From Chitinophaga agri (GTDB taxonomy: Bacteria > Bacteroidota > Bacteroidia > Chitinophagales > Chitinophagaceae), in NCBI RefSeq assembly GCF_010093065.1, contig NZ_CP048113.1:1-64000 (forward strand): a stretch of DNA of 64,000 bases, given 5' to 3'. The position numbers and the translations under genes are program-made. The notes beneath the pieces were generated by a model. It searched no databases, was not told the origin of the DNA, and worked only from the letters and a program-made list of their open reading frames with translations. Shown piece by piece: positions 1 through 30,595 of this stretch (positions are counted from its first letter, which is position 1; the number at the start of each line of letters is the position of its first letter).

Positions 1-1161
1 ACAACTGATACCAGTGTGAATCGTTGGTTGAGGTTGGGGCTGAAGCAGTATGAACTGACGAATCACCTGGGGAACGTGCTCGCAACGATATCGGATAAGC
101 CAGTGGACTCGGTTATTGGAGGCGTGAGGCAGTATTTTGTACCAGAGTTGCTGAGTGCCCAGGACTATTATCCTTTTGGGATGTTGCAGCCTGATAGGAA
201 GTGGAGTTTGGGAGAGTATCGTTATGGGTTCAATGGGAAGGAGAATGATAACGAGGTGAAGGGAGAGGGGAATCAGCAGGATTATGGGATGAGGGTGTAT
301 GATCCGAGGATAGGGAAGTTCTTGAGCGTGGATCCGTTGACAAAGAGTTATCCATGGAATAGTACTTATGCATTTGCGGAAAATGATGTAATCAGAAGTA
401 TTGACTTGGATGGAGAGGAGAAGTATATTGTTAATAGGAACTTTAATAGTGCAGGTCAGTTAACGAATGTGACTATTCAATGGTATGAAGATAAGGATGG
501 AAATGCAAGAGATAACGAAGCATATAATAGAAATCCAAGATTAAAAAAGGCAGATGTATATGTTATTGATAGAGGCCCTAGCGGGCGCGTGCTTAGGCCT
601 ATTAAATATCAAACAAAATTAACTGCAGAGCAAATGATAGTAATGGAAAAGTTTAGAACTATTGAAGAATCTCCACCTGAAGTAGCAAGTTTTGGCGATA
701 ACGTTAATGAGGGGAACTTAAATGGGAATGCTTTTAGAGATGGAACCTATCGTCAGGCTGAAATAGACTTAGTTCAAGATATTAAATTGAAGTTTCAAGA
801 AAATTCATCTTTATATATCGACTCAAAAGTAGAGGAACGTAAGTTGGTGTCTGTGGCGAATATTTTGAGTTATTTTCCCCAAGCAAATGTTGATATTACT
901 GGGAATTCTGGCACTCCTTCTGGAAATCCTGCTAAATTAAAACTTGGTACTGGTCCAAGTGTTTGGAGTACATCGGCAACCTTAAATGGGGAGGCCGCTA
1001 CTTTAGGAGCGTTGCTAAGTGCCCGCGCGAAAACAGCAAGTAGTAGTTTGCAGGTTAAATTTAAAATAGCTGGTACAAGAATCACTACTCAGCCTGGAAC
1101 GAGATTTTCTACGCCAGCAGGTCGGAATGTAAGTATTAGTATTAGAGGGTTAAAATTTTAA
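1..1161 (+). CDS. RHS/YD-repeat polymorphic toxin, 3' part with active tip A (5' end outside window)
   Basis: The reading frame is open from base 1, so this is the end of a longer rhs gene. The first ~125 residues show the RHS-associated core: NHLGN, YYPFGM, GEYRYGFNGKE, YDPRIGKFLSVDPL and a final DLDG. After that the sequence becomes a unique tip of about 245 residues. The last ~110 residues of the tip have the layout of an OmpA-like peptidoglycan-binding fold (DITGNSG, LLSARAKT, GTRITTQPGT, AGRNVSISI), which is a remote resemblance only. In this family the core forms a cocoon and the tip is the released toxin. This is the only tip in the window still joined to an upstream core, so it should be the expressed one. 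The 8-bp recombination site of the mobile unit lies inside the GEYRYGF codons. The toxic activity is unknown. Confidence 0.85.
   Translation, partial: TTDTSVNRWLRLGLKQYELTNHLGNVLATISDKPVDSVIGGVRQYFVPELLSAQDYYPFGMLQPDRKWSLGEYRYGFNGKENDNEVKGEGNQQDYGMRVYDPRIGKFLSVDPLTKSYPWNSTYAFAENDVIRSIDLDGEEKYIVNRNFNSAGQLTNVTIQWYEDKDGNARDNEAYNRNPRLKKADVYVIDRGPSGRVLRPIKYQTKLTAEQMIVMEKFRTIEESPPEVASFGDNVNEGNLNGNAFRDGTYRQAEIDLVQDIKLKFQENSSLYIDSKVEERKLVSVANILSYFPQANVDITGNSGTPSGNPAKLKLGTGPSVWSTSATLNGEAATLGALLSARAKTASSSLQVKFKIAGTRITTQPGTRFSTPAGRNVSISIRGLKF
193..230 (+). other. Attachment site J0 (rhs core / unit 1 junction)
   Basis: This 38-bp stretch encodes DRKWSLGEYRYGF of the RHS core and is the left junction of the array. 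Near-identical 37-bp copies occur at every later unit boundary. Here it is in frame with the upstream core. Relative to the four internal junctions it has one extra base in the G/T-rich part, which is what keeps the frame open. The crossover is inferred to lie in the last 8 bases, TATGGGTT at 223-230. Confidence 0.7.
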
Positions 1162-1171
1162 TTCGAAATTA

Positions 1172-1624
1172 ATGATGAAGAGGCTAATAATTTGTGTTGC
1201 TATCTGTTTTTGTGTAGGTAATCTATACAGTCAAGCGATTTACTTAAAGTACCCAATATTTTTTGATGTAAATGGCCAGTTTATTGAAGTATTTAATAGA
1301 GAGGATTCGTCTGTCATAACAGATTTGTGCTCAGATAGCAGTAAATTGATTAAGGTATATGATATGAATGAACAGGGGCGGTTGAAATTTTATTTATTGT
1401 ATGATTCTCGGAGAGTAAATATAGAAGGGGGGTACTTAGAATCTTCTGTATTGGTTGCAGACTCTATTTATGTTAGAAGATTAGGAGGAGGCTCTCGGAT
1501 TAAGTATAGGAAGTTTTATCAGCCACTTCGAGATGGTAATTGGACTTATTATGATAAGGCTGGGAACATTTACTTAAGGGAGAAGTATAGTAACGGATTT
1601 TTACGGGAGTCTCATTCTTTTTGA
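1172..1624 (+). CDS. Putative exported immunity protein for tip A
   Basis: This 150-residue protein starts 11 bp after the tip A stop, the usual place for an immunity gene. The N-terminus (MKRL, then a hydrophobic run ending GNLYSQA) looks like a signal peptide, so the mature protein should sit in the periplasm or outer envelope. The C-terminal half contains a GNWTYYDKAGN segment resembling the MORN-like repeats of Bacteroidota envelope proteins. An exported immunity protein would fit a toxin that works in the envelope. I do not recognise a named immunity family, so the role comes from position alone. Confidence 0.6.
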   Translation: MMKRLIICVAICFCVGNLYSQAIYLKYPIFFDVNGQFIEVFNREDSSVITDLCSDSSKLIKVYDMNEQGRLKFYLLYDSRRVNIEGGYLESSVLVADSIYVRRLGGGSRIKYRKFYQPLRDGNWTYYDKAGNIYLREKYSNGFLRESHSF

Positions 1625-1631
1625 ATGTAAG

Positions 1632-28582: not shown

Positions 28583-29440
28583 CCTTATTACAATACTTAC
28601 AACAACATTATACGGTAGGCACCTCTGCCTCTTACGAACGGGACATCAATCTATTTTTATCTTCTTATCCAAGTGCCTCTCAGGCGACCTACTCCGACCT
28701 GATGGGGCATATAGGAGTATTACGCCATCGCTATCGAAATAGCCACACCTTAAATCGCATCGTCAGCAGTATCAAAGTGTATTATGATTACCTGTGTTAT
28801 ACGGGTGAACGGCTGGACCATCCTGGTCGCAACATCCGCTTACGTGACAGGCGTAGCAGGGACATCCAGCTGCAGGACCTGTTTAGTAGTAGAGAGCTGG
28901 AAGTGTTGCTGGAGCGTAAAGAACGGTATCCTCTCTTATCCTTACGCAATAAGGTATTAATGAGTTTACTGATCTATCAGGGGTTGACGGTAAGTGAGCT
29001 GGCAGGATTAGTTGTAACAGATGTCTTACTGGAGAAAGGGGTAGTATACATTAAACGTACAGCTGTTACCAATAGGCGGGAATTACCCTAAAACCGGATC
29101 AAATAGGATGGCTGGGTATTTATCTGTCAGCAGTGCGTCCGGGGTTATTAGGGGGCTTAGAAAGCGAAATATTGCTAATCGGTCAGCGTGGTAAGGGGAT
29201 GGTGGCATCAGATATCAGTAAACATGTAAAACGGAGTTATAAGGGTCTTTATCGGGGAGGGAAGTGAGTGCACAGCGTATCCGCCAGAGTGTGATCGCGA
29301 ACCTGTTTATCCAGGGTTGTGATATAGGGGTAGTACAGCAGTTCGCAGGCCATAAATATCCGTCGAGTACAGAAAGATACCGCCAGGATGATGTGTACCG
29401 GTTACAGTCAGCGATAGAGTTATACCATCCGATAAGATGA
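28579..29440 (+). pseudogene. Tyrosine recombinase 2, type B copy broken by two single-base deletions
   Basis: A C is missing from the CCCC run near 29087, giving a stop right after ...RRELP (170 residues), and a G is missing from a G-run near 29256. The catalytic tyrosine half is lost. Both changes are in homopolymers, so a consensus error is a real alternative. Confidence 0.75.
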
Positions 29441-30558
29441 CCAGGTTAGCACACTTAATAAGTGTCTATAAAAGCACCTGGTAGCTACGACACAAAAATG
29501 ATACACTTTATTTACAACTCATTGATAAATAGGTGGGGTTAAGAATCTAGTTATAGGCACCTCACCCGACCCAGGAGTTCGGCTTATAGGTTGGAGCAAC
29601 AAGCGACGAACAAGCGACGGCTTAGCGACGAACAAGGAGTATAGTAAAAACGGACTGCCTTCTAAGCACCAGGTGATTAAATAAAGGTGTGTAAATCGGG
29701 AGTAAGCTGCTTTTACAGAATGCCACCCCTTGCCAATATTGAGTTTAATAAGTAGGGTTCGAGTCCCAACGGGACCGTGATACCTGGTACCGACCATTAA
29801 AGAGCCATCCACGAGGGTTTACATCATCCATATTATAGGGAGTTAGGAAAAGCGGTCTCTCTCCGTCCTTGGTGCGAACAAAAACCTGCGCCAGGCTGCG
29901 ACGGCTGCCGAATGAAGGGGATCCTTTAGGCAGCCCGTCACAGTTTTTGCGCCCCGTCGTCCTACGTTCGGGTAGCTCCCGGTCTGGCGGCATGCGCACA
30001 GGGGCCATGCTACGGCCATCCCTTCGCTACCTATAGTCCGTCCGCCACCTGCCTTAGCCGCCAGGGCCTTATCTTTTTGTCTTGCCCTCCGCTGCGCTCT
30101 GGGCTAATAAAGCGGACTAGGCGCGGCCAGCTGTGGCTCCGTGCTTGCTGCGCTGCGCACTCCCGCCCCAGCGGCCCTGGCGGCATGGCGGTGGTGGCGG
30201 GGGATCGCTATTAAGCGTGAGATTATAGCTACCATGGGATAGTACCTTGATGGCAGAGCGAAGACCAAGGCGCAGCGAACGTGAGCGGTTGTACCCTGGT
30301 CATCTGTAGTGCTATCTTGCTTCGTCTGCAGGATAGTGGATGTGCGTCAGCCATAGTACAAAGGCTGTGCATTATGACCTTCATAATCAGCAGGATAAGC
30401 CTTGCCGTCAGTAACACACCCACAATCCTACAGCCGCGCGCGTTATTATATTTTTTTTTTTCAATTGAAAGAAATGAGGAAAGAACAGATGAAAGAAAAA
30501 AACATATCTTGGGCGGAGTTCTTTGAGTTGAAAAATCCTTTAGGGATGTTGCAGGTGT
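29441..30558. other. Non-coding right end of unit 4
   Basis: Same as the unit 3 right end, including the segment with the T-arm-like GGTTCGAGTCCC (29757-29768) and the GC-rich inverted pair. No gene is supported. Confidence 0.5.
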
Positions 30559-30595
30559 GATAGGAAGCGGAGTTGGGGGAGTATCGTTATGGGTT
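30559..30595 (+). other. Attachment site J4 (unit 4 / tip C junction)
   Basis: The left part is the type B right end (AAGCGG, CGTTAT). Immediately after TATGGGTT the sequence reads TAATGGG instead of CAATGGG, which belongs to tip C. Together with J2 this limits the crossover to TATGGGTT (30588-30595). Confidence 0.7.

Follow-up and report, generated by a model that had tools for sequence, protein, structure and literature searches.

This report concerns a tandem array of predicted mobile units that lies behind the core of an rhs gene in the bacterium Chitinophaga agri. The stretch of DNA that was analysed, called the window hereafter, comprises bases 1–64000 of a single circular contig of 7.97 Mb and begins inside the rhs gene. 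Most of the core of this gene is found at the other end of the contig (L009, 10643–17926, 2428 codons, open to the last base) and continues in frame 1 of the window, where only its last 74 codons precede a site encoding EYRYGFNGKE. From this site onward, four units stand head to tail at 223–7693, 7694–15163, 15164–22876, and 22877–30587, with lengths of 7471, 7470, 7713, and 7711 bp, respectively.

Features of the Array

The four units have the same gene order: a tip, a small open reading frame (ORF), a helix-turn-helix (HTH) gene on the opposite strand, a SymE-like gene, a CHC2/Toprim primase gene with an ATPase part, and the genes of XerC-like and XerD-like recombinases. The right end of the unit is a stretch without long ORFs that leads into another copy of the site. 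Unit 4 is followed by a fifth tip and a SUKH protein, and then by fragments of an older unit. All the junctions in the window lie on one site encoding YRYGFNGKE, and three kinds account for the five tips: tip A is common to units 1 and 2, tip B to units 3 and 4, and the fifth tip is the third kind. The features are as follows:

1–222, +, end of the rhs core, in frame from L009; TIGR03696 (Rhs_assc_core) on ORF 1–1158
195–240, +, junction j0, core side: site encoding EYRYGFNG, crossover window TATGGGTT from 223
217–1161, +, tip A, in frame with the rhs core; no Pfam domain
1172–1624, +, presumed immunity gene A, from its position directly 3′ of the tip; no Pfam match
1689–2026, −, RstR-like HTH repressor, unit 1, frame broken; the intact copy at 9157–9498 matches NF041951
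2178–2399, +, SymE-like protein, unit 1; PF08845, 5e-13
2380–5064, +, CHC2/Toprim primase with ATPase part, unit 1; PF01807, PF13155, dnaG model below cut-off, PHROG primases
5141–5998, +, XerC-like tyrosine recombinase with full catalytic set, unit 1; PF00589, 2e-31
5995–6858, +, XerD-like recombinase with degenerate active site, unit 1; PF00589, 3e-18
6859–7693, +, right end of unit 1, without long ORF, into site copy j1; no Rfam match in 1–34000
7688–8632, +, tip A, second copy (unit 2)
8643–9095, +, presumed immunity gene A, second copy
9157–9498, −, RstR-like HTH repressor, unit 2, intact; NF041951
9650–9871, +, SymE-like protein, unit 2
9852–12536, +, primase-ATPase, unit 2
12613–13465, +, XerC-like recombinase, unit 2, frame broken
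13465–14328, +, XerD-like recombinase, unit 2
15158–16126, +, tip B (unit 3)
16130–16417, +, presumed immunity gene B
16540–16944, −, HTH repressor, unit 3; ~36% identical to the unit 2 repressor
17057–17269, +, SymE-like protein, unit 3
17244–19937, +, primase-ATPase, unit 3; 83% identical to that of unit 1
19934–20869, +, XerC-like recombinase, unit 3
20866–21729, +, XerD-like recombinase, unit 3
22871–23839, +, tip B, second copy (unit 4)
23843–24130, +, presumed immunity gene B, second copy
24253–24657, −, HTH repressor, unit 4
24770–24982, +, SymE-like protein, unit 4
24957–27650, +, primase-ATPase, unit 4
27647–28582, +, XerC-like recombinase, unit 4
28579–29437, +, XerD-like recombinase, unit 4, frame broken
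30582–31568, +, displaced older tip with a deaminase toxin domain; PF14424, 4e-17
31584–32018, +, SUKH-family immunity gene of the displaced tip; PF09346, 1e-11
32212–32534, HTH fragment (−) plus another copy of the site at 32514, left from a still older unit

A first-pass annotation of the window had already recognised four head-to-tail units of ~7.5–7.7 kb, and the lengths given above bear this out. It had placed them behind a single rhs core and let the array span from base 1; a core does precede the four units, but most of it lies at the contig's other end, and unit 1 starts at 223. The gene set that it ascribed to each unit is present in order in all four, although the repressor of unit 1, the first recombinase of unit 2, and the second recombinase of unit 4 have broken frames. 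It had also described the right end of each unit as a renewed copy of the core, which holds only for the site itself: a copy stands at each junction, and the unit right ends have nothing else in common with the core.

Units 1 and 2 differ by three single-base indels and no substitution, and units 3 and 4 by two single-base indels and, again, no substitution. It is these indels that disrupt the three frames, each of which is intact elsewhere in the array, and sequencing error is a possible source of the breaks. Units 2 and 3 are unrelated over their first 2 kb (tip, ORF, and repressor), and most of the remainder is 68–95% alike per 250-bp window, outside one indel stretch. The repressor varies with the tip (16540–16944 vs 9157–9498, ~36% identical), whereas the XerD-like protein is 97% identical. 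CTXphi has rstR types, and by analogy with these the repressor and the tip appear to travel as one module. Adjacent units are often identical, as seen for units 1–4 of the window and at L050, L053, L068, L072, L075, L186, L187, and L189; plasmid units are 99.97–100% identical over the compared stretch. Such identical neighbours look as if copies enter side by side in short succession.

Directly after the remnant of the oldest unit there are IS3-like transposase ORFs (33162–33973, named from sequence). In addition, a second rhs locus of the same genome (L016, G000:C1:228000-247000, ~7275–11776) has an orphan tip after a junction that resembles a unit end, accompanied by an HTH gene and by part of a primase gene (84% identical); this locus holds a decayed unit.

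The Junction Site and Its DNA

When the junctions are aligned, the core side and the unit-end side differ up to the base before TATGGG, and the tips differ in the bases that come after. Base −1 tracks the left side, as seen where one tip stands behind different left sides, and bases +9 and +12 track the tip, as seen where the same unit end meets different tips. For this reason, the crossover is placed inside TATGGGTT, a window of 8 bp.

The DNA of this site is unusually constant. Its first Gly codon is GGG in 41 of 45 rhs cores; across these genes, GGG accounts for 19% of the Gly codons. The count covers distinct cores, among them displaced copies, with an open frame of 550 codons or more ahead of the motif. 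Moreover, among 32 windows of nine codons with at least six conserved residues, the window of the site has the highest synonymous conservation, with a mean top-codon share of 0.81 versus 0.58 in 123 control columns. This pattern fits a DNA site that is under selection beyond its meaning for the protein, to which gene conversion among tips could add.

Related units use other motifs. A second subfamily in Chitinophaga, with primases ~40% identical, stands at the rhs motif YYPFGL, at TATTATCC; the units of Flavobacteriia are located at YKYNGKE, and the distant relatives in E. coli at DPIGL in rhs and at VENN in cdiA. In 12 of the 13 tips examined, VENN is encoded as GTTGAGAATAAY.

Empty and Occupied Loci

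The orthologous rhs locus, defined by the same upstream genes and the same downstream LysR gene (93–94% identical), is free of any unit gene in four other Chitinophaga species (G014, G016, G054, and G070), and in a fifth (G041) at least one unit stands at the same site, with the contig ending inside the unit. The distance from the site to the LysR gene is 3.8–8.6 kb in the empty Chitinophaga loci versus 37 kb in the window.

E. coli provides pairs of strains in which the two states can be compared base by base. At cdiA, strain 1303 has the order core-VENN-tip2 and strain C10 the order core-VENN-tip1-unit-VENN-tip2. The former reads TGTTGAGAATAAC between AGAATGC and TATCTG; the latter has the same left flank and the same 13 bp, then a new tip, and 7.8 kb further on TGTTGAGAATAAC again, this time between GAGTTGT and TATCTG. 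The flanks of the two strains are 96.6% identical over 6.3 kb on the left and 99.7% identical over 7.0 kb on the right, and the 13 bp are repeated at both ends of the insert, which contains a tip, an ORF, an HTH gene, a primase gene, xerC, and a toxin–antitoxin pair. Strain C11 carries the same insertion as C10, and the two are counted once. The displaced tip of C10 and its ORF are found over at least 80% of their length in 35 of 5426 E. coli genomes, and with any match in 39; among the matches listed, this tip is named cdiA in 16 of 25 rows.

The version of the unit that occurs in E. coli rhs (tip, ORF, SymE, HTH, primase, xerC) is located at DPIGL. Two units stand in strain Ec387 at a position where TK3887 lacks any. 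Starting at the DPIGL site, the sequences of the two strains agree at 99.4% along 12.8 kb, and the final tip of Ec387 is the one within the full rhs gene of TK3887. A partial core copy precedes the units of Ec387. Relatives of the rhs-type primase-xerC pair are present in 59 of the 5426 genomes (55 at 80% of the query or more), and the cdiA-type primase query matched 59 E. coli genomes, 4 of them at 80% of the query or more. Arrays with differing tips stand in complete E. coli genomes.

Among the E. coli loci L190–L192, L200, and L201, SymE is a gene of the unit in those that have units, and it also occurs after the rhs tip and immunity gene where no unit is present (TK3887 and ECO8855); in these unit-free loci it may be the remnant of a unit.

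That insertion replaces the tip joined to the core, as the first-pass annotation had proposed, is supported by the E. coli insertions at VENN in cdiA and at DPIGL in rhs, both of which displace tips that are joined to a core elsewhere. The comparison of empty and filled loci that it suggested is the one given here for Chitinophaga and for the E. coli pairs. It had also considered that the array could be an artefact of assembly, that the recombinases could act at other sites, or that close strains might never differ in their units; in fact, the layout is not confined to one assembly, the junctions stand at conserved rhs motifs with a single exception in 47 copies (see below), and the presence of units differs between strains.

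Distribution of the Units

A search with the unit primase in 79 Chitinophaga genomes returned a raw tally of 60, which becomes 33 of 79, fragments included, once DnaG-like rows are removed. The full tally of 60 was rejected as a count of elements because the rows near residues 27–361, at 27–32% identity, look like housekeeping DnaG. For the analysis of the surroundings, 39 stretches around primase matches in Chitinophaga (L050–L088) were compared together with the window, giving 47 primase copies. To their left, a tip starting at a conserved rhs motif is found in 36, an edge in 10, and neither in 1; to their right, the corresponding figures are 30, 16, and 1. The possibility that the array is the artefact of a single assembly was discarded, as the same layout recurs in independent genomes.

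A scan of named genomes found relatives in Chitinophaga, Sediminibacterium, Ferruginibacter, Flavobacterium, Chryseobacterium, Epilithonimonas, Aquimarina, and in Bacteroidales records. Their occurrence in the order is patchy, with 15 of 298 genomes, two of which are Chitinophaga. When plasmids were searched with the primase, the same order of genes turned up in Enterobacter behind a CdiA-like protein, and the repeat there begins at the VENN codons.

Other plasmid records were noted along with these. Thirteen Leptospira records have primases 37–43% identical to that of the E. coli cdiA unit. A plasmid of Janthinobacterium lividum (L188) has the order ORF, HTH, primase, xerC after an FG-GAP-repeat protein, possibly a third delivery family, and a Paraburkholderia plasmid (L203) has two units of the toprim-xerC type after a filamentous hemagglutinin-type protein, the second tip being annotated as a member of the ADP-ribosyltransferase family.

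Recombinases and Other Genes of the Units

The residues R, K, H, R, H, and Y are retained in 0.96–1.0 of 56 distinct XerC-like proteins, and in 11 of 11 proteins of an alignment that includes the E. coli relatives. By a reading of the motifs in 54 XerD-like proteins, 6 retain the first Arg and 3 the first His, and the second Arg is found in 53, the last His in 50, and the Tyr in 50; judged by these residues, the XerD-like protein is a putative degenerate but conserved partner. In the copies mapped, the recombinase genes are part of the unit.

The relation between recombinase and site was analysed with a tree of 45 XerC-like recombinases, all with a site assigned by hand, the other recombinase copies being left out. 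The five site classes need 4 changes on this tree, which is the minimum, and 0 of 200 shuffles gave a number as low. The two Chitinophaga classes separate from each other despite their common genus. The tree indicates that the clade of the recombinase follows the target motif.

Regarding the remaining genes, a search of solved structures returned only DnaG-type primases. No Rfam match was found at gathering cut-offs in 1–34000, and the idea of an RNA family in the unit right ends was abandoned on this account. A phage origin was rejected as well: there are no structural genes among the unit ORFs, no relative appeared in a scan of IMG/VR with patterns from one protein, and phage records match the primase core only, with 0 of 63 covering 80%. 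The units are not CTXphi-like phages, having an RstR-family repressor but no structural gene among their ORFs. Nor are they GMT islands, the match to GmtY being weak (34 bits vs a cut-off of 340) and no partner being matched among the 10 proteins scanned.

Tips and Presumed Immunity Genes

The compared loci contain 110 tips, two of them listed twice, which form 77 clusters; in 103 of the 110, the tip is immediately followed by an ORF of 70 codons or more. Left and right tips could be paired in 25 cases, 2 of which were too short for comparison; of the other 23 pairs, 16 are unrelated and 7 identical. Since the tip is unrelated to the displaced one in these 16 cases, the product of the gene changes.

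For 106 of the tips (all except the double listings in L109 and L120, a masked stretch in L077, and a displaced copy in L113), a scan matched 15 Pfam families by single or few members. Nearly all are toxin or enzyme domains, including HNH, AHH, GIY-YIG, and NucA/B nucleases, deaminase, glutamine deamidase, Fic, metallopeptidase, and CdiA_C; most tips have no match. Likewise, 98 of the 103 downstream ORFs were scanned (the partners of the four excluded tips and one overlong ORF in L169 being left out), and Imm35, Imm11, Imm53, and SUKH are among the matches, together with a few unrelated ones, such as a transposase domain. No Pfam domain was found in tips A and B of the window, which are likely toxins judging by their position and their relatives.

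The locus has the traits of an RHS polymorphic toxin, namely the core (TIGR03696), a variable C-terminal tip, and an adjacent immunity gene (PF14424 with SUKH), and, as in arrays formed by C-terminal displacement, old tips are retained downstream without a core. The view of the array as an archive, put forward in the first-pass annotation, agrees with the displaced tips being mostly open and followed by an ORF, but the array in the window holds three kinds of tip only.

Circular Records and Homologous Exchange

A circular plasmid record of Shigella flexneri, SWHIN_104 (L205, 8,758 bp), has the length of one unit together with an insertion sequence. It was rejected as an excised element, as there is no break at its sites, and it is a product of homologous excision or of assembly. 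This record and a plasmid of Lonsdalea populi (L204, 11,289 bp) are circular records of little but one or two units, and neither was accepted as an excised element.

E. coli R12 and MP1, which differ by one unit, were considered as a case of site-specific loss and set aside, since the switch between them lies inside the units. Homologous recombination also acts on these loci, and the number of units can also change by exchange inside them. A core fragment before each displaced tip, as expected from the model of Jackson et al. (see the last section), is not found in the units of the window and is found at some other loci.

Proposed Mechanism and Alternative Explanations

The units display the traits of an integrative element: a recombinase with intact residues, repeats at the ends equal to the sequence of the empty site, and presence or absence of the locus content among relatives. 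Given the E. coli strains that are told apart by a single related unit at a precise 13-base site, the units of the window are likely self-inserting elements. We consider it highly probable that the unit is a site-specific mobile element, as predicted from its genes and junctions, whose left end is the likely toxin tip of the gene that it has entered and whose XerC-like recombinase likely inserts a circular form in the rhs core.

Concerning the steps involved, we infer that a circular unit, carrying the right end, site, tip, immunity gene, repressor, primase, and recombinases, would recombine with the core at the site that both contain. This would let the core read in frame into the new tip. 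Behind the unit there would remain the old tip with its immunity gene, still preceded in frame by a site but no longer by a core; reversal would restore the old tip. A further unit entering at the first junction would produce tandem arrays. The XerC-like enzyme would be the one that cuts, with the degenerate XerD-like protein as its partner, and the primase may serve replication outside the chromosome, the repressor control, and SymE as a further regulator. In such a scheme, only the first tip would be translated, and the units may be transferred between cells. The motifs at which tips start (YRYGFNGKE, YYPFGL, YKYNGKE, and DPIGL in RHS, VENN in CdiA) would then serve as attachment sites, and some of the orphan tip arrays, at least, would be insertions that have stacked up or decayed.

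A number of observations weigh against this proposal. No excised circle with a joined site was seen, and the Shigella circle matches E. coli chromosomes unbroken through both site copies. R12 and MP1 differ through an exchange ~750 bp before the site, and the displaced tips at L166, L168, L169, and L172 have long core copies, which are a mark of homologous recombination. The core and the unit ends are very different to the left of the crossover, so that no binding arms of the recombinase could be delineated; in the rhs site of E. coli, the third base already tracks the tip, which narrows the shared overlap. One primase copy of the 47 (G006:C8:857277, L066/L067) has no motif on either side; this copy may use a further site. 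The XerD-like recombinase lacks catalytic residues and is absent from the E. coli units, which have one recombinase only. On the recombinase tree, the YKYNGKE class by itself accounts for 2 changes, and site and host lineage are confounded, the two Chitinophaga classes being the exception. The unit ORFs include no transfer genes, and no relative was found in IMG/VR in a scan with patterns from one protein. Finally, the annotations of C10 and C11 both list cdiA as frameshifted, and in G005 the frame of the core breaks just before the site.

Some of these observations would fit classical C-terminal displacement, where homologous recombination of the host between core copies swaps the tips and the recombinase genes are passengers. 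The long core copies, including the one in Ec387, and the exchange inside units in R12 and MP1 are what it would leave behind. However, the C10/1303 pair repeats just 13 bp, nothing but the site is common to the core and the right ends of the units, and the recombinase genes lie inside the unit in the mapped copies and belong to clades that predict the site; we hold this explanation to be improbable. Less probable still is the tandem duplication of one element, or its expansion during assembly, without a role in tip swapping. Units 1/2 and 3/4 without substitutions and the 7 of 23 neighbouring tip pairs that are identical would agree with it, but the 16 pairs with unrelated tips and the differing-tip arrays in complete E. 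coli genomes speak strongly to the contrary.

A third explanation concerns what the unit is for. It could be a selfish integrative element whose tip keeps the target gene whole and whose toxin-immunity pair makes the host dependent on it, the tip swap being a by-product. It is common for an element to provide the 3′ end of its target gene, as icd prophages do, and an RstR-like repressor and the absence of transfer genes from the unit would suit such a life. The tip is nevertheless unrelated to the displaced one in 16 of 23 comparable cases, and units 2 and 3 combine a mobility half that is 68–95% alike with unrelated tip halves; we hold the selfish explanation to be possible but unlikely. It differs from a tip-carrying site-specific element in emphasis more than in mechanism.

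Comparison with Known Systems

Prophages such as icd integrate within a gene, supply a new 3′ end, and restore the same product, whereas the units described here change the product and bring an immunity gene. In shufflons, site-specific recombination swaps segments of a gene. The likeness of shufflons and of the pneumococcal tvr locus (PMC6265443) to the units is the exchange of segments; those are local sets of segments, in contrast to separate elements with their own recombinase and primase. In Vibrio cholerae, Aux3 is a tyrosine-integrase element with att sites that has toxin-immunity cargo, and both its excision and its integration have been measured (PMC7721734). Aux3 lies between gcvT and thrS, carries whole genes, and leaves its neighbours intact, while the units would replace the 3′ half of the resident toxin gene.

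Recombinases have been noticed near toxin loci before. Zhang et al. (2012, PMC3482391) reported XerC/D-type recombinases beside polyimmunity loci and suggested that they build immunity arrays, the passages on these loci describing no element that bears a tip. In bee gut bacteria, integrase-like genes near rhs were suggested to aid the capture of Rhs sequences, with their role left open (Steele 2017, PMC5727410); the section on these genes gives no unit structure or site. In the papers on TANFOR toxins, no recombinase is mentioned.

For contact-dependent growth inhibition (CDI) systems, Ruhe et al. (2016, PMC4927057) described integrase genes among orphan arrays and proposed that modules integrate into cdiA. 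A CDI review (PMC9086364) states that orphan toxins typically begin at VENN or a similar motif, and such delimiting motifs are reported to be of unknown function (PMC6831553). In their parts on orphan modules, the first two of these papers (PMC4927057, PMC9086364) contain no element, attachment site, gene order, or empty and filled insertion, unlike the present analysis.

Jackson et al. (2009, PMC2935791) described old tips shunted downstream in arrays and proposed a circular, tip-bearing intermediate that acts via homologous recombination between core fragments; in its discussion of Rhs, the same paper knows of no integrase of the integron kind. Compared with that model, the units presented here carry recombinase and primase genes and join at a short fixed site. 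Tip displacement as an outcome is thus already known from Jackson 2009, Ruhe 2016, and related papers. No description of such an element was found in the open-access full-text literature, subscription journals being mostly outside this search, and the agent and its site appear to be new.

How RHS and CDI proteins exchange their tips without losing the old immunity has been an open question since C-terminal displacement was described, and the published model needed a circular carrier that had previously not been identified. We lean toward the wider view that VENN in CdiA and DPIGL, YRYGFNGKE, YYPFGL, and YKYNGKE in RHS proteins are attachment sites of one class of tip-carrying elements in Bacteroidota and Proteobacteria, that these elements are the missing agents of tip exchange, and that orphan toxin-immunity arrays are stacked or decayed insertions. 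If this is true, a unit of tip, immunity gene, recombinase, and primase that enters at VENN would supply both the carrier that the displacement model called for and the reason why the DNA of the motif is constant.

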